From the NCBI GenBank assembly GCA_002869535.1, contig PKUK01000002.1:213154-277153 (forward strand): a DNA stretch of 64,000 nt, read 5' to 3'. A program made the translations under genes and the position numbers. Positions 1 to 46,021 of the stretch are shown here, piece after piece. Each line of letters begins with the position of its first letter. Within the stretch, counting starts at the first letter, position 1. This DNA comes from Arcobacter sp. Lineage in GTDB: Bacteria > Campylobacterota > Campylobacteria > Campylobacterales > Arcobacteraceae. The notes under the pieces were generated by a model, which ran no database searches, was not told the DNA's origin, and worked only from the letters and a program-made list of their open reading frames with translations.

Positions 1-826
1 CATTCATAACTCCATCAACCTTTGAAATCATCTCATCTTTTGAGATAAATACAGGATGAACTCTAAGTTCAATTTGACTTCCTATTTTTTTAGCGATAGT
101 TAGAAGTTTAATTGTATAGTTAAACTCATTTGCAAAATCAATATCAGGAGTATCAATATCTTGAATACCTTCAATTAAGATATCTTCAGGTTTTGCATCA
201 ATACCATAAGCAATAGAACCTAAAATAAGAAGTTTATGTGCTGCATCAAAACCACCAACATCAAAAGTTGGATCAGCTTCTGCATAACCTAACTCTTGAG
301 ACTCTTTTAAAATAGTATCGTAGTCTACACCTTCATTTATCATTTTTGTAAGCATATAGTTACAAGTACCATTCATAATCCCTCTAATAGACTGAATATG
401 ATTAGCTGTCAATCCATCTCTTAAGGCATTAATAATTGGAATACCACCAGCAACTGCTGCTTCATATTCAAAAGGAATATTTCCTGCAAGTTTTTCTAGG
501 TCATATCTATGATAAGCAAGAAGTGCTTTATTAGCAGTAACTACTGATTTACCCTTTAAAAGGGCTTTTTGTACGATTTCATAAGGTTTTTCAATTCCAC
601 CCATTAGTTCAACAATAATATCAATAGAGTCATCTTCTAAAACTTTATCAATATCATTTGTTAATTCAATAGTTACATCTCTTTTTTTACTCAAATCGTT
701 TACAACACCAATAGTAGGAACAATTTCAATACCAGCACGTGCGGTTATAATATCTTTGTTATCTTTTAATATGTTTGCTACACTTGCACCAACAGTTCCT
801 ACACCAATAATTGCGACTTTTAACAT
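1..826 (-). CDS. hom: Homoserine dehydrogenase, C-terminal part outside window
   Basis: NAD(P)-dependent homoserine dehydrogenase, which reduces aspartate semialdehyde to homoserine for threonine and methionine synthesis. Translating the minus strand from ATG at 826 gives MLKVAIIGVGTVGASVANIL, a Rossmann GxGxxG start. It continues with the family motifs VELMGG, VTANKALLA, YEAAVAGGIPII, GIMNGTCNYML and GYAEADPTFDVGG. About 275 residues are visible and the frame is open to base 1, so the catalytic C-terminus and any ACT domain lie outside. A good ribosome site (aagaagg) precedes the ATG. In Campylobacter hom sits directly next to the aminotransferase gene; here two extra genes separate them. 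Confidence 0.95.
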   Translation of the reverse strand, partial: MLKVAIIGVGTVGASVANILKDNKDIITARAGIEIVPTIGVVNDLSKKRDVTIELTNDIDKVLEDDSIDIIVELMGGIEKPYEIVQKALLKGKSVVTANKALLAYHRYDLEKLAGNIPFEYEAAVAGGIPIINALRDGLTANHIQSIRGIMNGTCNYMLTKMINEGVDYDTILKESQELGYAEADPTFDVGGFDAAHKLLILGSIAYGIDAKPEDILIEGIQDIDTPDIDFANEFNYTIKLLTIAKKIGSQIELRVHPVFISKDEMISKVDGVMN

Positions 827-841
827 TTTTATTAATCCTTC

Positions 842-1273
842 TTATATTTCAATAGCAGTTGTATTATAAATTTTATGAGATAATGTAATGTGTTTAATTC
901 TTTTGTTTAATAATCTTTTTTTTACCATACTATCACTAAATTTTTTACATATAAATATGCATTTGTGTATATTTATACCTTGGTTTTCTAAAATTCTGTA
1001 AACATTAGATATTTGTTCAATAATCTCTTTTAATATATGATTTGTAACTGTACCACATTTTATTTCAAGAAGTGTAATCTTATCATTCTTATGGATAATT
1101 AGACAGTCACAAAGCGTTGGTTCTATTGAACCAAATATTGATTTTTTCATTTTTAAGTCTTTTATTCCTAAATCTGGCTTGTATATTTGTTTAATATCTT
1201 TTTTACTTAGTTTACACGTATTATCTTTACATTCTGATGATGTATTAAATATTAAATTTAAAGTATTAATCAT
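842..1273 (-). CDS. Small PD-(D/E)XK-like protein paired with AAA ATPase
   Basis: A 143-residue protein that I do not recognise by name. The middle has the pattern expected of a PD-(D/E)XK nuclease core: Asp56 in a hydrophobic strand (CDCLII), a short turn, then the strand LLEIK with Glu70 and Lys72, followed by a helix (HILKEIIEQI). Four of the six Cys/His-rich positions are near the N-terminus (C15, C20, C55, C57), so metal binding is possible. It overlaps the end of the upstream ATPase gene by 8 bases, which implies translational coupling and a shared job. It ends 15 bases before hom. A nuclease role is inference from one motif; it could also be a non-catalytic member of the fold. Confidence 0.7.
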   Translation of the reverse strand: MINTLNLIFNTSSECKDNTCKLSKKDIKQIYKPDLGIKDLKMKKSIFGSIEPTLCDCLIIHKNDKITLLEIKCGTVTNHILKEIIEQISNVYRILENQGINIHKCIFICKKFSDSMVKKRLLNKRIKHITLSHKIYNTTAIEI

Positions 1274-2612
1274 TTTTATTTAATATTCTTTCATTTAATT
1301 CATCACTTCTATCTAAAAGTTCATCTAGAACTTCATCAAAATTATCATTTGAAATACCAAATTTGTCTATTTCAAGTTTATTGACAGTTGTCTTTGTTTT
1401 TTCATTTTTAAATAAATAGGCTGAAACATCATCTTTTGATATTGCAAATTCATTATCTTTTTCAATATTGTCTAACTTGATACAGTTATTAATTTCATTT
1501 AAAATATAATCACTATGTGTAGTTACTAAAACTTTTGCTCCTGAATTAGAAAGTAAGACAATAAATTTGGCCATTTGTATTTGTGCTTTTGGATGGAGGT
1601 GAGCTTCTGGTTCTTCTATAACAAAAAAAGTTTTAGAAATATCTTCTGTATTTTTTAAAAAAACAATAAAAGGTAAAGTTTCCAATGTTGCTGAAGAGGC
1701 TAAATGCAAATCTAACCTTGTATTATTTTTTGTTTTTAAGTAGAAGTTTTTATAATTATCATCCAATTTTTCTTCTTCAATTGAACCCTTTATTATATTT
1801 CTTTGTAAAAAGTCAATAAGAAGTGTTTGAAGTTTTTTATTATCTGGATTGTCATGTTTAAAAATAGACAACCATTTAATATCTAATTTATTTGATCTAA
1901 TATCAGAATAGTTTGTAATGAAATCTATCGTTGGTTTTGTAAGTCTTGCAGAGCTTGATTGTCCTTTATATTTGTCTCTTAATAATCCAGAGACAATTTC
2001 ATCAAATGCTAAGATGAAACCTGTTCTTGAGGCTGGAAAATACTTTATACCTGAATAGCTAGAAAGATTATTTTTAAAGTATAAGAATATTTTATCAAGT
2101 ATGTTACTTAAAAGCATGTATATGATTAAATCGTCATCAACATCTTTTGTATCATTAAATATTTCAATTTCATATTGATTTTCTTGAAATAAATCAGCTA
2201 GATTTAAATTATTTTCATAAAATATTTTTTCTAAAACATTTGAATTATTATTAAAACTTTTATTGATTAATTTTGTAAATAATGTATTTATTAAAAAATA
2301 CATATGATTGATAAGATTATTAAAATCAGTTCTTTTATTTTCAAATGAAAAAATTACATGAGTAAATTTTCTATTTGTTTCTTTGATGTCTCTTCTTTCT
2401 ATAATTGTTTCAATAAGAAACTTTGATTTTGGAAATAAAAGAAATAGAATTTCTTTTTCTTCAGGTTTCTCTTTTATTAAAGTTAAAAATTCATAAATAA
2501 TGTGAGCCATATAACTCTTATGAGTAGAATTTTGTCCTACAAAAAGAGTTAAGTTTTTAACTTCAACTTCTGCTTCTTTTATATTTGCAAGATTTTCTAC
2601 TCTAAGCTTCAT
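1266..2612 (-). CDS. OLD/ABC-type AAA ATPase (AAA_15/AAA_21-like)
   Basis: A 448-residue ATPase of the overcoming-lysogenization/RecF-like group. Walker A is at residues 26-33 (GQNSTHKS), where His replaces the usual Gly before Lys. A signature-like segment LASSATLETLPF comes before Walker B (FFVIEEPEAHLHP, about 329-341), and the switch His is in VLVTTHSDYIL (about 366). The middle, about residues 60-290, is helical and poorly conserved in appearance. There is no TOPRIM domain at the C-terminus, unlike true OLD nucleases. The ribosome site (taggaga) overlaps the stop codon of the upstream aminotransferase, so the pair is stitched into a housekeeping operon. ATPases of this type drive several phage-defence systems, but I cannot assign this one to a named system. 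Confidence 0.85.
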   Translation of the reverse strand: MKLRVENLANIKEAEVEVKNLTLFVGQNSTHKSYMAHIIYEFLTLIKEKPEEKEILFLLFPKSKFLIETIIERRDIKETNRKFTHVIFSFENKRTDFNNLINHMYFLINTLFTKLINKSFNNNSNVLEKIFYENNLNLADLFQENQYEIEIFNDTKDVDDDLIIYMLLSNILDKIFLYFKNNLSSYSGIKYFPASRTGFILAFDEIVSGLLRDKYKGQSSSARLTKPTIDFITNYSDIRSNKLDIKWLSIFKHDNPDNKKLQTLLIDFLQRNIIKGSIEEEKLDDNYKNFYLKTKNNTRLDLHLASSATLETLPFIVFLKNTEDISKTFFVIEEPEAHLHPKAQIQMAKFIVLLSNSGAKVLVTTHSDYILNEINNCIKLDNIEKDNEFAISKDDVSAYLFKNEKTKTTVNKLEIDKFGISNDNFDEVLDELLDRSDELNERILNKND

Positions 2613-2624
2613 TATTTATATCTC

Positions 2625-3833
2625 CTATAAACTATTTAAATATTTTTTTATATTTTTTGCTGCTTGTCTAATTCTTTTTTCATTTTCAATTAAAGCAATT
2701 CTTACATATTGGTCACCATATTGTCCAAATCCAATACCAGGACTAACTGCTACTTTTGCTTCTGTAAGAAGTTGTTTAGAAAATTCCATACTTCCAAGAT
2801 GTGCAGCTTTTTCAGGGATTTTTGCCCAAATAAACATAGAAGCATTTGGTTTATTCATTTTCCATCCAGCATCTTTAAATGCTTCAAGCATAACATCTCT
2901 TCTATAATTATATTTTGCAATATGCTCTGCAACACAATCTTGTGGACCATCAAGGGCAATAGTTGCTGCAACTTGAATAGGTGTAAACATTCCATAGTCA
3001 AGCCATGACTTGATTCTTTTTAAAGCACCTATTAGTTTCTCATTTCCAACCATGAAACCAACTCTCCATCCTGCCATATTGTATGATTTACTTAAAGTAA
3101 ATGATTCAACAGCAACATCAAGTGCACCTTCAGCTTGGAAAATTGACGGAGTTGTATATCCATCAAAAGTGATATCAGCATAAGCAATATCAGAGATAAT
3201 ATAAAATCTCTCTTTTTTAGCAAGGTCAACTAATCTTTGGTAAAACTCAGGTCTAACTGTTGCACAAGATGGGTTATGTGGGAAGTTAACTAAAACATAT
3301 TTTACTTTTGGAATAGACTCTTTTAATGTTTTATTTAATCTTTCGAAAAATAACTCTTCATCTACTTCAAAACCTTCACCAAATGGTAATTCAAAATTAT
3401 GAATAGCAGCACCTGCTAACATAAATGCATAAGAGTGAATAGGGTATGTAGGGTCTGGAACAACAGCCACATCTCCAACATTTACAATAGCTTGTACTAA
3501 GTGAACATATCCCTCTTTACTTCCCATTGTAGCAACGGCATGTTTATCTGGGTCTAAATAATCTACACCATATTTTCTTTTGTACCAATTACAAATAGCA
3601 AGTCTAAGTTTATAAATACCAGCACTTGCACTATAGCCATGGTTTTTTGACTTATCAGCTGTCTCTTTTAATTTATCTATAATATGTTGAGGTGCAGGAC
3701 CATCTGGATTTCCCATTGAGAAATCTATGATATCTTCACCTTTTCTTCTAGCTTCCATTTTTATATTATTAACTTCAGCAAACACATAGTTTGGAAGTCT
3801 TTTCATTCTTTCAAATTCAATTTCGGGGAACAC
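2625..3833 (-). CDS. alaC: Class I/II aminotransferase, AlaC-like
   Basis: PLP-dependent aminotransferase of 402 residues, fold type I. It closely resembles E. coli AlaC, the pyruvate-glutamate (alanine) transaminase, along its whole length: MGNPDG near the start, YSASAGIYKLR, VLVNFPHNPSCATV, and the PLP-lysine segment SFTLSKSYNMAGWRVGF near residue 250. The C-terminal VRIALIENEKRIRQA carries the carboxylate-binding Arg. It corresponds to the gene adjacent to hom in Campylobacter, where its exact substrate is less certain, so an aspartate or other keto-acid role is possible. It is probably the head of the short operon running into the ATPase pair and hom. Confidence 0.88.
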   Translation of the reverse strand: MFPEIEFERMKRLPNYVFAEVNNIKMEARRKGEDIIDFSMGNPDGPAPQHIIDKLKETADKSKNHGYSASAGIYKLRLAICNWYKRKYGVDYLDPDKHAVATMGSKEGYVHLVQAIVNVGDVAVVPDPTYPIHSYAFMLAGAAIHNFELPFGEGFEVDEELFFERLNKTLKESIPKVKYVLVNFPHNPSCATVRPEFYQRLVDLAKKERFYIISDIAYADITFDGYTTPSIFQAEGALDVAVESFTLSKSYNMAGWRVGFMVGNEKLIGALKRIKSWLDYGMFTPIQVAATIALDGPQDCVAEHIAKYNYRRDVMLEAFKDAGWKMNKPNASMFIWAKIPEKAAHLGSMEFSKQLLTEAKVAVSPGIGFGQYGDQYVRIALIENEKRIRQAAKNIKKYLNSL

Positions 3834-3835
3834 AT

Positions 3836-4657
3836 TTACTCCTTGATTAATACACTTAATCCACGCTTTATATTAAATAGCGTGTATAAGTCTGTTATTT
3901 TTATATATTTTGTATTTTCTGGTATAGAAAGTGTTATACTTCTATAAACTTTTTCCTCTTTTGAAACCTTTAGTATATTCAAGTGTTCATCATAAAAAAC
4001 AACATAAGGTAACCATCTATTTAGTGTTCTACTTACTATGTATATTTTACTTGCTTTATCAACTCGTATAAAGTAAGGAGATAAAGGTTTTGAAAAAACT
4101 ACTTTTTCATTATTTGTGATATATGTTGCATCAAATAAAGAAGCATTTGTAGTATCTAGTTCATAAGTCCATTTATCATTATTTCCTTTTGTTATATCCA
4201 ATACTCTACAGTCATGTTGAAATAACTCATTTGATAATACCAAAGGGTCAATGGCGGCTTCTGTTTTCAACTTTATTGTCCAAGTTAAACTTTCACTTCC
4301 ATCATATATTGTGTGTTTTGTAAAATAGTAGTAATAACCTAGTGATTTTAGAGTATATTTTAATATCTTAAATGATTTTACAGGATTACTATTTATTTTA
4401 AAAGTAACTTCTATATTTTTAGGATTGTTGAATGCTAAGTTTAAAAGTCCATTATCTTTTAAAGTTTTTAATATAGTTTGATAATTGAGTCCATCTACTG
4501 TTGTGTATTGGTACTCTTTTTTAAAGATAAAATTTATTAAATTTTTATGTGTTAGATAGTTTTGTGTACCTATAAAGTTTTCAATCTTTTGATTTAATAG
4601 CTCATTTGCATTTAAACTTATTACTAAAAAAATAGAAATTAAAATTTTTTTTATCAT
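3836..4657 (-). CDS. Exported periplasmic protein of unknown function
   Basis: A 273-residue protein starting with a clear signal peptide (MIKKILISIFLVISLNANE; cleavage probably after LNA). The mature part is rich in Lys, Tyr and beta-strand-like segments and has no domain I can name. It ends 2 bases before the aminotransferase start and begins 11 bases after rlmB, so it is co-transcribed. In Campylobacter a periplasmic protein of unknown function holds the same place, which supports orthology by position only. Confidence 0.8.
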   Translation of the reverse strand: MIKKILISIFLVISLNANELLNQKIENFIGTQNYLTHKNLINFIFKKEYQYTTVDGLNYQTILKTLKDNGLLNLAFNNPKNIEVTFKINSNPVKSFKILKYTLKSLGYYYYFTKHTIYDGSESLTWTIKLKTEAAIDPLVLSNELFQHDCRVLDITKGNNDKWTYELDTTNASLFDATYITNNEKVVFSKPLSPYFIRVDKASKIYIVSRTLNRWLPYVVFYDEHLNILKVSKEEKVYRSITLSIPENTKYIKITDLYTLFNIKRGLSVLIKE

Positions 4658-4668
4658 TATCTTCTCTT

Positions 4669-5361
4669 TTATTTCATTAAATTATATATTAAAATACCAG
4701 CTGCAACAGACACATTTAAAGAATCAAAATTGTTTTCCATACCTATTGAAACTTTTAAATCCAATTTACTAATAATCTTATTAGATAAACCTTCCCCTTC
4801 ACTTCCTAGAAAAAGTGCAACTTTATCCTCTTTTGTGATGGTTCCATATTTTTTTAAATCTGTACCATTCATAGTTGCACCAATAAGTGCATAACCACAC
4901 TGCTTTAACTCATTTGCAAGATCCAAAGAGTTTGGATACAAAGAAAATGGCATGTCTAGCATAGCACCAGAACTAGTTCGTATAACACCTGATTCATTCA
5001 GTGATTTTACTCCAGAAGCAACTATTCCATCAACACCTAGTGCGTAAGCAGTTCTTGTGATTGCTCCAATGTTACCCACATCTGTAAGACCATCAAGCAC
5101 TACTATAAAATTGTTTTGTTTCATTTCGTTTATTGGAGTGTAATCGAACTCTTCTTTTAGTTTTAGAAAAAATCCTTGATGATTCCCACCTTTTGCCAAA
5201 GATTGGGCTTTTTTATTGTCAAGTCTGATTATTTTTTTACCAAGTTTTAAAAACTTTGAAAAAATCTTTTTATCTAATTCTTTAGAAAACATAACCTCTT
5301 CAATGATTGAAGGATGATTCTCTAAAACGTATAAAACTATTTGTTTGCCATATATTATCAT
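4669..5361 (-). CDS. rlmB: 23S rRNA guanosine-2'-O-methyltransferase, TrmH/RlmB type
   Basis: SPOUT-family RNA 2'-O-ribose methyltransferase of 230 residues. The three SpoU motifs are present in order: motif 1 LDGLTDVGNIGAITRTAYALG, motif 2 ALFLGSEGEGLS and motif 3 SLNVSVAAGILIYNL. The N-terminal substrate-binding L30e-like domain (about residues 1-75) is there. Family knowledge points to methylation of G2251 in 23S rRNA; other TrmH members act on tRNA, so the exact target is inferred. The neighbour is a second rRNA methylase, rsmI. Confidence 0.88.
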   Translation of the reverse strand: MIIYGKQIVLYVLENHPSIIEEVMFSKELDKKIFSKFLKLGKKIIRLDNKKAQSLAKGGNHQGFFLKLKEEFDYTPINEMKQNNFIVVLDGLTDVGNIGAITRTAYALGVDGIVASGVKSLNESGVIRTSSGAMLDMPFSLYPNSLDLANELKQCGYALIGATMNGTDLKKYGTITKEDKVALFLGSEGEGLSNKIISKLDLKVSIGMENNFDSLNVSVAAGILIYNLMK

Positions 5362-6282: not shown

Positions 6283-6483
6283 TTATTTTTGTGCGTATTT
6301 AGCTTTGAATTTTTCTACTCTACCAGCAGCATCAACGATTTTTTGCTCACCTGTGAAGAATGGGTGACAAGCTGAACAAATATCAATTCTTAATGTTTCA
6401 ACATTTGATCTAGTTTCAAAAGTGTTACCACAAGAACAAGTTATAGTACAAGCTTTATAGTCTGGGTGAATTTCTTTTCTCAC
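6283..6483 (-). CDS. rpmE: 50S ribosomal protein L31
   Basis: Zinc-type (C+) ribosomal protein L31, 66 residues. It begins MRKEIHPDY and has the Cys ligands CSC near residue 16-18 and CSAC near residue 37-40. The start codon is GTG at 6483, preceded by aaaagga. The rpmE-rsmI order is conserved in Campylobacterota. The upstream region carries a stem-loop and a -10 box, annotated separately. Confidence 0.95.
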
Positions 6484-6514
6484 TTTGTTTCCTTTTAATT
6501 ATGTAATATGTAAC

Positions 6515-6543
6515 AAAAGGTCGCGTCTCATTTGTCGCCCTTT
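6515..6543 (-). promoter_or_regulatory. Stem-loop in rpmE leader, candidate L31 autoregulatory site
   Basis: Inverted repeat AAAGG-TC-GCG / CGC-CCTTT around a 10-base loop, lying 32 bases upstream of the rpmE GTG. A TATAAT -10 box on the minus strand (6569-6574) places it inside the rpmE transcript. L31 leaders that bind the protein are known in other phyla. Here the function is inference, and the hairpin could instead terminate miaA. Confidence 0.35.
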
Positions 6544-6568
6544 ATTAAATATTTAAAATAAGATTGGG

Positions 6569-6574
6569 ATTATA
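6569..6574 (-). promoter_or_regulatory. Candidate -10 box of rpmE
   Basis: A perfect TATAAT on the minus strand, about 86 bases upstream of the rpmE start and touching the 3' end of miaA. It suggests rpmE has its own promoter rather than depending on miaA transcription. No strong -35 is visible. Confidence 0.4.
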
Positions 6575-7448
6575 CTGTAAAATACTTAAGAATATCTGAA
6601 TTTAAGTTCTCTATAATATTGGTTTCTTGGCTTTTATTAAATTGTGATTTATTAAAGGTAGTTTGTCTTTTAGCCAGTTTTGCTGTGTTTAGAGCTACCT
6701 TTTCTTCTAATTGTTCTTTTGTAAGTTTGCCATCAAGATATTCTAAGGTTTCAATAATGCCAATAGAACTCATGGCATTTGGCTTTCTTGTATATTTTTT
6801 TTCTAAAAACAAAACTTCATCAATAACCCCATCTTTTATCATCTGTTTTGTACGAAGTGCTATTCTTTTTTTAAGTTCTTCTTTTTCCCAATGGATTTCA
6901 AAAAGTTTAAGCTCAGGAGATATTGGTTTTTTGGGATTTTCTAAAAAATACTGAGTAGGAGTTAATCCACTCTTTCTATAGATAGAATAGGCTTTTTGTA
7001 TTCTATACTTGTCATTTGAAGCGATTTTTTCCATATGTTTTTTATCTAACTCAAAAAGTAATTTATAAATCTTCTCGTGGGGCATATCAAGTTCTACATC
7101 TTCACCAACACCTTGGCTTATTCCTTCAATTAGAATCTTTAGGTAAAAGCCAGTACCACCTACGATGATAAGATTTTTATCATTTTTAGTGGCATATTTC
7201 TTAGCTTTTTTATAGCAATCTAGGAATTCAACCACATCAAACTTCTCATTTACAAAAACTTCATCTATACCAAAATGTATGATTCCCTCACGCTCTTTAA
7301 GTGTAGGTTTCGCTGAAGCTATATCTATCTCTTTATAAACTGAAAGTGAATCAAGAGATAATATTATAGAGTTTGTTTTGTGGGCTATATCTATTGATAA
7401 GCCCGTTTTACCAGAAGCTGTTGCCCCTATGATTGCTATTTCTTTCAT
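6570..7448 (-). CDS. miaA: tRNA dimethylallyltransferase
   Basis: MiaA transfers a dimethylallyl group to A37 of tRNAs reading UNN codons. The 292 residues fit the family. Seen: P-loop GATASGKTGLS at residues 8-18, DSLSVYKEIDIASAKPT, VGGTGFYLKILIEG, YRIQKAYSIYRKSG and MSSIGIIETLEYL. It is followed by rpmE and preceded at 13 bases by the GNAT-nitrilase gene on the same strand. Confidence 0.95.
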   Translation of the reverse strand: MKEIAIIGATASGKTGLSIDIAHKTNSIILSLDSLSVYKEIDIASAKPTLKEREGIIHFGIDEVFVNEKFDVVEFLDCYKKAKKYATKNDKNLIIVGGTGFYLKILIEGISQGVGEDVELDMPHEKIYKLLFELDKKHMEKIASNDKYRIQKAYSIYRKSGLTPTQYFLENPKKPISPELKLFEIHWEKEELKKRIALRTKQMIKDGVIDEVLFLEKKYTRKPNAMSSIGIIETLEYLDGKLTKEQLEEKVALNTAKLAKRQTTFNKSQFNKSQETNIIENLNSDILKYFTV

Positions 7449-7461
7449 AACCTTTGATTTC

Positions 7462-8988
7462 CTATACTCTTATAACATCATAAATATCTGTTCTTCTATC
7501 TTTTAGATTATTTACACTTCCTACACTATGTAGTTCTGTTAAAAGTTCTAAATCCACATCTGCTATTAGTATCATCTCTGTATTTGGCGTTGATTCTGCT
7601 TTTACACCATTTGCAGGGAAGGCAAAATCACAAGGTGTAAATACTGCTGATTGGGCATATTGGATATCCATGTTTTCAACCTTTGGTAAGTTTCCAACAC
7701 ATCCAGCTATTGCAACATAACATTCGTTTTCTATTGCTCTTGCTTGTGCACAAATTTTTACTCTTGAGTAACCATTTTGGGTATCCGTTAAAAATGGTAC
7801 AAAAAGTATATCCATACCTTCTTTTGCAAGAAGTCTGCTTAGTTCTGGAAACTCACTATCATAGCAAATAAGAACTCCAATTTTCCCACAATCAGTATCA
7901 AAGGCTTTTATCTTATCTGAGCCTTTCAATCCCCAAACTTTTTGTTCATCTGGAGTTACGTGTATTTTGGCATATTTTTCAACTTCACCATTTCTCTTAC
8001 ATACAAAACCTACATTGTTTAGAGTTCCGTCAATAAGTTCTGGCATACTTCCTGATATAATATTTATATTATATGCAATAGCTAGTCTTGAGAAGTCTTC
8101 TTTAAATCTTTCAGTGTATTTTGCAAGTTCTCTTATGGCATCTGCTTCACTTAGGTGGTTAAACTCTGCCATTAAAGGTGCGTTAAAAAACTCTGGGAAA
8201 AGGGCAAAGTCACTTCTATATCCAGATACTGCATCTATAAAGTATTCAGCTTGTTCAATTACCTCTTCATAATTTTTATAAAGTCTCATTTGCCACTGTA
8301 TTAGTCCTAGTCTTATGACTTTTTTCTGTGCCATTGGTTTAACTGTTGGTTTTGCATAATATATATTATTCCACGCAAGTAAACAAGCATAGTCTTTGCT
8401 GTATATGTCACCTTCAAGATAGTTTTTTATAACTCTTTTTACATAAAAGTCGTTTGATAGTTGAAAGTTAAGTACGGGATCATATATTTCCCGCTCTTTT
8501 ACTTTTTGTATATACTCTTTTGGTGTTATTTCATCTGCATATTTAGAATAATTTGGAATTCTACCACCAAAAATTATTCCTTGTAAATTAAGTTCTTCAC
8601 AAAGCTCTTTTCTAAAGTCATACAATCTTCGGCCAAGTCTTAGCCCTCGAAATTTCTTATTGATAAAAACATCTACCCCATAAAGCATATTTCCATTATC
8701 ATCATGGGTATCAAAAGTATAGTTACCTGTGATTTCTTTGTAAGTGTGCGTATCGTCAAACTTTGTATAGTCAACGATAATACTAAGTGCGAAACCTGCA
8801 AACTCACCATCAATTTTTATAGCTACTTGACCATTTGGAAACTTTTCAATTAAAGAGTCATACTCTTCTTTACTCCAAGCTGATTCATCAAGATGTCTAT
8901 ATTCATCTTCCATTAAAGTGCAAATACTATTGTGATTTTCTTTTTTTAAATAGACTAATTCAATTTTGTCTATATGTTTTATATCCAT
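7462..8988 (-). CDS. GNAT acetyltransferase-nitrilase fusion protein
   Basis: Two-domain protein of 508 residues. The N-terminal half (about 1-200) is a GNAT acyltransferase with the acetyl-CoA loop FRGLRLGRRLYDFRKELCEE. The C-terminal half (about 220-508) is a carbon-nitrogen hydrolase of the nitrilase superfamily with its triad visible: Glu in FALFPEFFNAP, Lys in YAKIHVTPDE and Cys in VLICYDSEFPE. The same architecture occurs in B. subtilis YhcX. The substrate is unknown; an amidase acting on a small amide is likely. It is divergent from the prenyltransferase gene that follows. Confidence 0.88.
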   Translation of the reverse strand: MDIKHIDKIELVYLKKENHNSICTLMEDEYRHLDESAWSKEEYDSLIEKFPNGQVAIKIDGEFAGFALSIIVDYTKFDDTHTYKEITGNYTFDTHDDNGNMLYGVDVFINKKFRGLRLGRRLYDFRKELCEELNLQGIIFGGRIPNYSKYADEITPKEYIQKVKEREIYDPVLNFQLSNDFYVKRVIKNYLEGDIYSKDYACLLAWNNIYYAKPTVKPMAQKKVIRLGLIQWQMRLYKNYEEVIEQAEYFIDAVSGYRSDFALFPEFFNAPLMAEFNHLSEADAIRELAKYTERFKEDFSRLAIAYNINIISGSMPELIDGTLNNVGFVCKRNGEVEKYAKIHVTPDEQKVWGLKGSDKIKAFDTDCGKIGVLICYDSEFPELSRLLAKEGMDILFVPFLTDTQNGYSRVKICAQARAIENECYVAIAGCVGNLPKVENMDIQYAQSAVFTPCDFAFPANGVKAESTPNTEMILIADVDLELLTELHSVGSVNNLKDRRTDIYDVIRV

Positions 8989-11499: not shown

Positions 11500-14400
11500 A
11501 TGTTTTATATGAATTCTCATTAATGTATCATTTATTTTGTTATATAACGATTCTAAGTTAATTTCTGCAATACCTAAATTGGCTTTCAATGTTAATATTT
11601 TTTCTTCAATTGTTTTTTTCTCAATTTTTTCAACTTTTTCATTAAGTTTTAAGAGTTCTTGAAGAACAGTTTGAATTAATAAAAATTCTTCTTCTTCTTT
11701 TGAGCGAACACTTCCTAATAATTCTCTAATATCATATTCTTTACAAATACTATTATTAGCAGATTCAGGTGTGAATTTTAGTATTCCTGCTTTTTCTAAT
11801 TGTTTTAGGTAAAGGTAAGAAATAGGTTTAGGCTCAGTATTTTTTTCTTCAATTTTTAAAAGCATATTAGGTGCTTCAATAGTATCAAAAAAAGGTTTGT
11901 GTATTTTTTCAATTGTATTTCTTATTATTGCTAAGTACTCTTTCTTATCATCTCCTGAAACTTTTACATGGAGCGTTTTTCTCTCTTTATCTGCTTTTAT
12001 CTCTGCTTTACAATTAAATATTTTACTTTCTAATAAAACACCTTGTTTCCAAACAATATCATTTAAAATATCTTCATTTAAATTAACAATTATTTGAGGC
12101 ATTATAGATGCTGGCATAAAAACATATTGATAAATTACATAAATGTAATCATTTAATGGTGCATAATCATGATAGTCACCGGATAATAGATCTGGCAGGA
12201 GCATTTTGTTGTCAATCATAAATCCTAATTTAAAGACTTTAAATAATGTAATAATAAATTTACCTTCTAAACGGTTATAGGTATAGTTCTCTAGTTCAGG
12301 ATATTTTTTAAACTCTTTAAAGTCATTAAAGTTTAAAATATCAAGGATGTTCGATTCATTTAATTCTCCCTTATTCAGTTTAATCGTAGGAGAATTAATA
12401 ATTTTATATGCGGCGTCTAATACCCATTTTGGTTTGAGAATATAATAATTTTCTAAAATTAGATCACCTTCAAAATGTAACATTATCCCTAATTCATGCA
12501 ATAAAGATATTAACTCTTTTCTATGACTTTGGGGAATATTATATTTTGTACAAAGGTTATCGAACATATTATATTCTTGATGATTTTCTTTTGAGCCTAA
12601 AAGAGTGTCTTTTATTTTAACCCATTTTGTTGGAATTGGTGTTCCCAATGACAAATGTTCGTTATTGGAGGTATGTATAAAGTTAAAGAGTTCTTTTTCT
12701 AATTTTTTTGTGCCTTGTTCATTTTCTTTAAGACAGTTTAATTCAATAAAATTTACTATTGAAGGATATTGCTTATGTAAGTCTTTTTGGCTTATATCAA
12801 AAACATTAGAGTCTTCTTTTTTATTTAATGCTACAAATATAGGAGAATCACCTCCAAAACTTTTAATCATATCAAGCCAATATTTAGGTTTTTCATCTTT
12901 TCTTCCATCTAAGACCAAAACATATACACATCTTTTTGATAGAAAAAATTGGTGTGTAGAATGCATTATATCCTGTCCACCAAAATCCCAAAAATAGATA
13001 GTTTTATCTTTATCTATTTTTTGATTAATTCGTATTCCATGTGTTTTTGGTTCATCAATATTAAAAATATTTTTTGTAATTCTATTAATAATTGAAGTTT
13101 TACCAGCTGAACCTTCTCCAATAAATATAATTTTTACTTCTTTAAGCTCTTCACTACCTTCTTCAAGAGCTTCAATGTAAGTATGTAGTGTATCACCACC
13201 TTTTTCAATAAATTCTAGTGGAGGGAAAATAATAGGATTATTGAAAACAAAAATACCCTCATCTTGTTCTGTAACCTCTTCTTTTAATTTAATTTTATTA
13301 AATAATGTAGAAGGTATTTCTTTCAATTTATTATTATTTAAATCTATAACATTAATATAATCTATATTATCTGGAATAAAGCTAATATAGTTATGTTCTA
13401 AATCTAAAGCTCTTAAATTTTTTAACAATACAATGTCTCTTGATATTTCAGTAAGATGATTAAAGCCTAGAAATATACTTTTTAAAGAAGTCACCTTTAG
13501 CAATTCTTCTGGAAATTTAATAAATTCATTATGCCTTAATTCTATAAGAGCTAATTTTTTTAGAGATTTGATTTCTGATGAAATTGCATCAATTTGATTA
13601 TTGTTTGCATATAAGTATTGTAGTTTTGTGAGGTATTCAATTTCTTTGGGTATTTCCGCAAGCTTATTTTCAGAAATATTTAAAAAGGATAAATTGGGAA
13701 GTTGCCCTTTCTCAATATTAAAAGTAGTAAGTTGATTTTTAGAAATTTCTAATCTATCTAGTTGTTCGAATTGAAATATTTCACTAGGGAAGATAGTGAA
13801 TTGATTTTCATTAATTTCTAAAGTGGTTAATTTTTTTAGATTTGTAAGTTCAGGTATTAATTCTCTTAATTCATTGTTGTTTAATTGTAATGTATTGAGC
13901 ATACTAATTTTAGATATTTCTTGAGGAAGATTAGATAATTTATTAGAATTAATAGTTAAAATTCTAAGTTTATGCAAATATCTAATTTCAGCAGGAAGAC
14001 TAACTATATTATTGTTAGAAAGATCTAACATATTTAATTCTGAAAGGTTTCCAATTTCAGCAGGTAAAGTACTTAAATTATTGTGTGAAATATCTAAACT
14101 GTCCAATTTTTCAAGGTTCCCAGTCTCTGATACTAAATTGGTTAAGTTATTGTTTGATATGTAAAAAGATTCTAAATTCAAAAGGTTTCCAATTTCAATT
14201 GGCAAACTAGATAGTTTATTATTACTGATAAAAAAAGATTTTAAATTTAAAAGATTTCCAATTTCAGTTGGCAAATGAGATAGTTTATTATTACTTAGAT
14301 ATAAATATTGTAAATTTAAAAGGTTTCCAATTTCAGTTGGTAAATTAGATATATTATTGTTATCAAAATTTAGAAAAGTTAACTTTTCTAAATTTCCAAT

Positions 14401-45555: not shown

Positions 45556-45996
45556 TTAATTTACTTTATAGACTTTATCAAGTAGAGAATATAAAGTATA
45601 CAACTCTTCGTCATCTAAAACTTCTAAAGCATTATATAGATTTTTTGCATGATTTGGAAATACTTTTTCTATTACATCTTTACCTTTTTGAGTAATGGTT
45701 AAAATAGATGCTCTGTTATCGTTTGGATCTTTTATTGAAGTTATCCAGCCATCTCTTTTTAGGTTTTTTATAACTACTGTTATATTGCCTGGCGTACTCA
45801 TGGTAAGTTTTGTAATAGAACCAATATTTAAATCACCTCTATGATATAAAACTTCTAAAACTTTAAATTGATTAAATGTAAGGTCAAATTGAGATAAGTA
45901 AGTTATAGTTTTATTTGTAATTTTTAGTGCAGTCTTTTCTAATCTAACAATTGTTTTCATAGATTTGTCTGTTCTTTTCCCATAACTTTTCATCAT
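45556..45996 (-). CDS. MarR-family transcriptional regulator
   Basis: A winged-helix repressor of 146 residues. Seen: QFDLTFNQFKVLEVLYHRGD, GSITKLTMSTPGNITVVIKNLKRDGWI (recognition helix) and the wing DPNDNRASILTITQKG. I chose ATG at 45996 because aaggag is 6 bases upstream, while the in-frame TTG at 46002 has no room for it. It heads the cluster yceI-dioxygenase-reductase-pirin-CDGSH, probably sensing a phenolic or oxidant. Confidence 0.92.
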   Translation of the reverse strand: MMKSYGKRTDKSMKTIVRLEKTALKITNKTITYLSQFDLTFNQFKVLEVLYHRGDLNIGSITKLTMSTPGNITVVIKNLKRDGWITSIKDPNDNRASILTITQKGKDVIEKVFPNHAKNLYNALEVLDDEELYTLYSLLDKVYKVN

Positions 45997-46021
45997 CTTC
46001 AACTCCTTAAAAGAAGTATAC

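Follow-up and report, generated by a model that had tools for sequence, protein, structure and literature searches.

A pair of overlapping genes on the minus strand, one for an ATPase and one for a small predicted nuclease, was analysed at the start of a 64,000-nucleotide stretch of the Arcobacter sp. contig PKUK01000002.1 (the window). The pair is probably a phage-defence module of two genes and of the WonAB/PD-T4-4 kind, representing a branch in Campylobacterota, and was apparently inserted without a scar in the alaC-hom operon; this assignment draws on sequence comparison, on predicted structures and on analogy with described systems. The ATPase gene (1266..2612) encodes a 448-residue OLD-type ABC ATPase, as indicated by the open reading frame (ORF) list, Pfam, PADLOC and an AlphaFold2 (AF2) model, and its product is the predicted sensor or regulator. 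The nuclease gene (842..1273) encodes a 143-residue protein of predicted PD-(D/E)XK fold, the predicted effector. The two genes share 8 bp (1266..1273), which suggests translational coupling. Both belong to conserved families, more than chance would give.

The pair lies in one strand with its host genes. The upstream neighbour, an alaC-type aminotransferase gene (2625..3833, minus strand), ends 12 bp (2613..2624) before the ATPase start. The downstream neighbour is hom, for homoserine dehydrogenase (1..826, minus strand), which runs past the window start and resembles 6448..7710 of locus L014; it starts at 826, 15 bp beyond the nuclease stop, and this junction (827..841) holds AAGGA, which resembles a ribosome-binding site. 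The names alaC and hom are those which we take to be right from the first inspection of the sequence and from general knowledge. The sequence-only reading had placed two coupled genes between alaC and hom, 12 and 15 bp away from them and overlapping by 8 bp, and the ORFs bear out all of these figures. The 8-bp overlap was also present in the ORF lists of four related loci (L014, L018, L115 and L141), while in L016 and L139 the two ORFs are separated by 2 bp.

The distribution of the pair among relatives is sporadic. The ATPase was found in 6 of 299 relatives and in 6 of 397 genomes of the phylum, the window's genome being counted in both, in 2 of 200 genomes of family f16 and in 5 of 175 of family f6. 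The nuclease was found in 5 of 150 relatives and 4 of 398 genomes of the order, again with its own genome included, and a nuclease scan of genome contigs gave two loci, L013 and L014. The genome sets behind the two proteins overlap, and some of the relative genomes are draft bins. The window's genome holds one ATPase match at E<=0.001, which is the ATPase itself.

The alaC-hom site was examined across the family of the window's organism. A homologue of alaC was present in 103 of 104 genomes, the exception (G039) being 61% complete, and the locus was looked at in 92 of the 103. In two of the 92, G023 and G005, alaC and hom are separated by the pair (the G005 pair is split over two contigs, which were read apart). 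Among the other 90 loci, 83 are empty, with alaC and hom adjacent at a gap of 5-166 bp; the remaining seven are the window's own, one at a contig end and five from genus g7 with no hom in the stretch. The two congeners examined, G001 and G002, have an empty site with a gap of 8 bp. For family f16 an alaC match was obtained in 56 of 61 genomes and 30 loci were returned; the site is occupied by the pair in G498 and by the ATPase in G441, and the other alaC loci read are empty in 29 of 29 cases, with gaps of -1 to 22 bp.

Related pairs were also found at other sites, where the gene names were read from the ORFs without a family search. In G039 the pair stands between gatB and gpsA. A gatB match was present in 19 of 20 relatives, of which 13 show both genes and six have no gpsA in the stretch; the two genes are 1-128 bp apart in 11 of the 13, 626 bp apart in G001 and 638 bp in G002. 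The gap of these last two (L228, L229) holds an ORF on the opposite strand, named MarR-like by eye, at the junction where G039 carries the pair. In G836 the pair splits ubiX and coaD, and all 18 other loci having both of these genes are empty, with distances of -16 to 152 bp. The pair stands beside rimO in G129 and upstream of bioB in G717, where the nuclease appears as two ORFs in different frames (L140 6048-6463), either a decayed copy or an assembly error. In G719 (L139 2649-5990) the ORFs nearby were read by eye as AraC-, HipA-, HepT- and MntA-like, a setting that resembles a toxin-antitoxin locus. Phages or plasmids as carriers of this very pair were rejected: the nuclease was absent from the viral contigs and plasmids searched, and the relatives of the ATPase found in phages (3 records), plasmids (23 records) and viral contigs (56 loci) are all distant. 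The sequence-only reading would have been refuted by two genes that are always vertical housekeeping genes at this locus. This was rejected because the sites are empty in most relatives examined, at alaC-hom in both families and at ubiX-coaD alike.

The ATPase and the nuclease travel together as a unit. Pairing of protein clusters by the same size of longest contig, a proxy for co-location, joined 53 of 93 nuclease clusters to an ATPase cluster when the best 120 of 256 ATPase clusters were used, and 52 of 65 where the longest contig has at least 1850 bp; a length-shift control averaged 2.0 of 93 and never exceeded 7. Distance matrices were compared for 49 presumed pairs, made up of the window's pair and 48 of the 53 matched (five with an incomplete member being omitted), and they correlate with a Mantel r of 0.744, compared to 0.156 for the highest of 2000 permutations. 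A search for co-occurrence of the two genes in other genomes had been proposed from the sequence alone, and both figures answer it in favour of the pair.

The genomes having the ATPase without the nuclease are three. In G441, where the ATPase stands alone between alaC and hom and no nuclease was found at E<=1, the ATPase differs from the family in 7 of the 83 columns that are conserved, with H366N, H340Q and P341V among the changes; the median is 0, and among the rows without long gaps only P0072 departs more, at 8 columns. H366 is the presumed H-loop histidine, and G441 is the one genome of the three to have lost it. The other two, G179 and G492, weigh against the pair as a unit. The ATPase of G179 departs at 1 of 83 columns, and that of G492, at 355 residues too short for the column count, has the same Walker A, Walker B and TTHSDY stretches. 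In two genomes (L017 7493-8359 and L116 2163-3029) a 288-residue gene, with argG next to it, immediately precedes the ATPase. The copy in G179 (L017) matches the PADLOC model PDC-S69 at 3.2e-105, and its C-terminal part also matches a PD-DEXK-type model. This neighbour may be a separate gene; a swap of partner in G179 and G492 is a possible alternative.

The family of the ATPase was assigned from profile searches. Two Pfam models, AAA_15 (1.3e-21) and AAA_21 (1.4e-15), were the sole matches above the cut-off, and no TOPRIM was found in the Pfam scan. The PADLOC model PD-T4-4_A (PDLC04033) matched at 1.5e-35 over residues 1-439 against 1-454 of 460, compared to 3e-24 for AriA; among the best 25 of 54 matches, the best stretches of the GajA and Old models fall in the ATPase part. 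The AF2 model has a predicted local distance difference test (pLDDT) score of 87.7 and its nearest folds are the PtuA, SMC and Rad50 heads, which predicts an ABC-type (PtuA/Rad50-like) fold. These results are in accordance with the initial description of the protein as OLD-like without TOPRIM. A sequence search against solved structures gave a best value of 0.055, for an OLD-family entry, and nothing useful.

A motif census of 71 aligned ATPases revealed Walker A, Walker B and H-loop motifs. The Walker A of the window protein, GQNSTHKS (residues 26-33; 2514..2537, minus strand), had been singled out as an odd feature, which it is not: the pattern GxN(S/G)T(H/N/Q)K(S/T), where H, N or Q replaces the final glycine, occurs in 71 of 71 aligned ATPases and is a family trait. 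Outside the group the motif reads GKNNVGKT in an E. coli plasmid relative, GKNNTGKT in a Bernardetia relative and GPNSSNKT in a Vibrio phage relative; the last is a PD-T4-4_A protein with a variant similar to that of the window.

The 143-residue partner gave a confident PD-(D/E)XK model (AF2 and fold searches; pLDDT 93). An alternative fold had been considered as the outcome that would speak against the first interpretation, and the model predicts the expected one. The nearest solved structure is NucS/EndoMS, with 15% identity over the aligned part. The residues D56, E70 and K72, noted at the outset as a nuclease-like pattern, are all present and form the predicted active site D56 ... E70-x-K72 (1058..1108, minus strand), flanked by C57 and C73. 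Its D-x13-E-x-K spacing equals that of D160, E174 and K176 in NucS of Pyrococcus abyssi, for which the EndoMS counterparts are D165, E179 and K181 (PMC7343888).

The conservation of this site was read from 96 distinct rows, obtained from 93 database proteins and 7 from loci after identical sequences were merged. D56, C57, E70 and T77 are kept in all 96. Residue 72 is K in 51 rows, L in 44 and M in one, and residue 84 is I, V or T in all 51 rows with K72 and K in each of the 45 L/M72 rows, so that every row has a lysine at one of the two positions. In the nuclease model residue 84 sits on the following helix (78-97). We read this swap as a catalytic lysine that has moved. Such moves occur in PD-(D/E)XK enzymes, although a literature search on a moved catalytic lysine in this class found no paper. 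K32 was tried as the catalytic lysine of the L72 rows and dropped, because G836 has N there while K84 is present in all of the L/M72 rows. Of the 96 rows, 94 have all four cysteines C15, C20, C57 and C73, the exceptions being P0187, which lacks C20 and C73 together, and P0209, which lacks the N-terminal part. C57 follows D56 and C73 follows K72, and therefore, by strand alternation, both should face away from the active site; the four cysteines may form a structural metal site. The swap, and likewise the cysteines, may represent one historical event and not 96 independent ones.

No known family was matched by the nuclease in PADLOC (E<=1), Pfam or NCBIfam. Four relatives gave none in PADLOC at E<=0.1, and five relatives in Pfam at E<=1 gave only matches below the cut-off, the best of which (4.8e-4, AMP-dom_DIP2-like) was taken as chance. 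A viral fold search gave no match at E<=0.001. The best sequence match among solved structures, an aspartate carbamoyltransferase chain at 0.016, was also rejected as chance. Within the nuclease gene, on the plus strand, a stem-loop of seven pairs followed by T-rich DNA was seen at 1117-1134; it is likely chance because one was found against 0.9 expected.

The two proteins were compared with known systems, and WonAB is among the closest in plan. As described for the Vibrio cholerae WASA-1 prophage, WonAB consists of an OLD-ABC ATPase and a PD-(D/E)xK nuclease, and protection requires the ATPase motifs and K71 of WonB; WonB by itself is toxic whereas overexpression of wonAB is not, translation is arrested, and rRNA or tRNA is the target that the authors propose (PMC12137116). 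The same authors place WonAB in a wider uncharacterised family of ABC-ATPase sensors with nuclease effectors and describe a similarity to PD-T4-4 (PMC12137116). On the level of this description, the window pair shares the two-gene operon, the OLD-type ABC ATPase without TOPRIM followed by an adjacent nuclease of predicted PD-(D/E)xK fold, and a catalytic lysine at a similar number (K71 in WonB, K72 here). It differs in its location: WonAB is on a prophage, whereas the window pair and its relatives stand in core operons with no phage genes in the stretches read.

PD-T4-4, which is listed with PD-(D/E)XK (PMC10952713), shares the order of ATPase then nuclease. The PD-T4-4_A match covers the ATPase almost from end to end, and the predicted nuclease model has the PD-(D/E)XK fold of the B component. 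Eight aligned PD-T4-4_B-type proteins keep an Asp and (D/E)xK in 8 of 8, the plan of D56/E70-x-K72. However, these proteins have 193-210 residues compared to 143, and the window nuclease family has the four conserved cysteines and the lysine-swapped clade. Membership of the nuclease in PD-T4-4_B was not found, as PADLOC gave no match and hhalign against the eight proteins gave a probability of 2.3% (E 0.02). Three plasmid or phage relatives of the ATPase were scanned, and the next gene, of 198-209 residues, matches PD-T4-4_B in each. Small enterobacterial plasmids of about 4-5 kb (L123, L126, L128) consist mostly of an ATPase gene and a gene of about 200 residues; L123 was the one scanned, and its genes match PD-T4-4_A and PD-T4-4_B.

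The domain plan is also that of the class OLD-ABC ATPase + Novel REase of Krishnan et al., as cited in PMC12137116 and PMC12409358; homologues of that operon are stated to encompass all detected WonAB homologues (PMC12137116). Four other candidates were rejected, on the predicted fold of the partner or for want of a TOPRIM. Septu (PtuAB) carries an HNH endonuclease (PMC10952713), whereas the window partner models as PD-(D/E)XK and has no Pfam match. For PARIS, the partner does not model as the TOPRIM of AriB, and the AriA match is the weaker one. For Gabija and OLD, Pfam finds no C-terminal TOPRIM on the 448-residue ATPase. The sequence-only reading had supposed an ATPase-nuclease defence plan, with Septu and PARIS as examples, in a combination it could not name. 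The plan itself is likely; the two examples do not apply, and the combination can be named as the OLD-ABC ATPase and PD-(D/E)xK plan of WonAB and PD-T4-4.

The junctions and composition of the pair were analysed for signs of mobility. The sequence upstream, to TTTATAGGA, is common to the window site and the empty congener site, and the ATPase begins after it; on the other side a new AAGGA-type site precedes hom. By eye no junction repeat was seen beyond the short stretch resembling a ribosome-binding site, no repeat search being made. The GC content of the nuclease gene is 21.3% and that of the ATPase gene 23.1%. Every one of 47 other window ORFs is higher (23.9-34.3%, median 30.1%), a set from the 49 listed with 12605..12997 and 45556..46002 omitted and with none before position 8000; separate values were obtained for alaC (32.9%) and for the part of hom in the window (31.2%). 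The low GC supports a foreign composition of the pair. Between G005 and G023 the synonymous divergence (dS) is 0.363 for alaC, 0.193 and 0.106 for the two ATPase pieces, 0.047 for the nuclease and 0.260 for hom. The synonymous changes are 35 in 332.5 sites for the cassette compared to 132 in 524 for the flanks (Fisher p 5.5e-8). The cassette dN/dS is 0.28-0.40, below 1 yet above that of the flanks (0.07-0.09). In a tree, a quick build with Shimodaira-Hasegawa-like approximate likelihood ratio test (SH-aLRT) support only, the occupants of alaC-hom do not stand together but form two groups, and G039, a genome of the window's family, clusters on the f16 side. These observations fit horizontal spread with more than one insertion or move, and an old shared insertion with later moves and losses stays compatible with them. 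A promoter scan of 700-4800 was uninformative because it gave 27 promoter-like sites compared to 29.9 in shuffles.

For a defence module of this kind WonAB would be the best guide to mechanism, by analogy. Two ATPase molecules would pair with ATP bound, and this dimer would detect infection and either restrain the nuclease or let it go. Next, the nuclease would cleave a nucleic acid that the infected cell cannot do without, and phage growth would be stopped by abortive infection. The cassette, presumably without a promoter of its own, would be transcribed with the host operon.

The explanation which competes best, though with a low probability, is a mobile or selfish module like a toxin-antitoxin system, in which the ATPase restrains the nuclease and addiction explains the persistence in core operons. 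The tight gene overlap, the sporadic distribution and the HipA- and HepT/MntA-like genes close by in G719 agree with it, and so does the toxicity pattern of WonB; however, the WonAB authors argue against such a system for their pair (PMC12137116). The decay of the G441 ATPase where the nuclease is absent is expected under either model, and no toxin-antitoxin family was matched above the cut-off by the window pair, save that the title of Pfam AAA_21 mentions AbiEii.

A DNA repair or housekeeping module of the lineage, such as one combining a Rad50-like ATPase and a NucS-like nuclease, is improbable. NucS is a repair enzyme, for which we know of no ATPase pair of such kind. It is the nearest fold of the nuclease, the SMC/Rad50 heads stand beside PtuA among those of the ATPase, and the location in core operons would suit such a role. 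Against this, the pair is missing from nearly all relatives searched, the two congeners examined included, and the horizontal signals and the PD-T4-4_A match of the ATPase point elsewhere. A regulator of amino-acid synthesis coupled to alaC and hom, suggested by the position of the pair inside that operon in two families, is very unlikely, as related pairs stand in the unrelated operons gatB-gpsA and ubiX-coaD and most family loci have alaC and hom adjacent without it.

The phage-defence assignment concerns a plan that is already known. The literature searches, as far as they reach, gave no published account of the nuclease family, its cysteines, the lysine swap, the Campylobacterota branch or the habit of sitting inside core operons, and they found no paper in which PD-T4-4 is named together with Arcobacter or WonAB together with Campylobacter. 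Defence systems are mostly sought in islands, prophages and plasmids, and the pair would escape such searches because it is embedded in core operons and its nuclease is unrecognised by Pfam, PADLOC and NCBIfam. A wider proposal, held tentatively and less probable than not in our estimate, is that of a cassette living hidden in core biosynthetic operons (alaC-hom, gatB-gpsA, ubiX-coaD). Such a cassette would be promoterless and scarless, would borrow the promoter and ribosome-binding sites of its host and would spread from species to species by recombination of the conserved flanks; its effector would be a compact PD-(D/E)XK nuclease stapled by a metal (Cys4), with the catalytic lysine on the following helix in one clade. 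If the pair is a defence module, the WonAB/PD-T4-4 kind is extended to Campylobacterota, and the lysine swap and the four cysteines allow direct and cheap tests of the effector active site.
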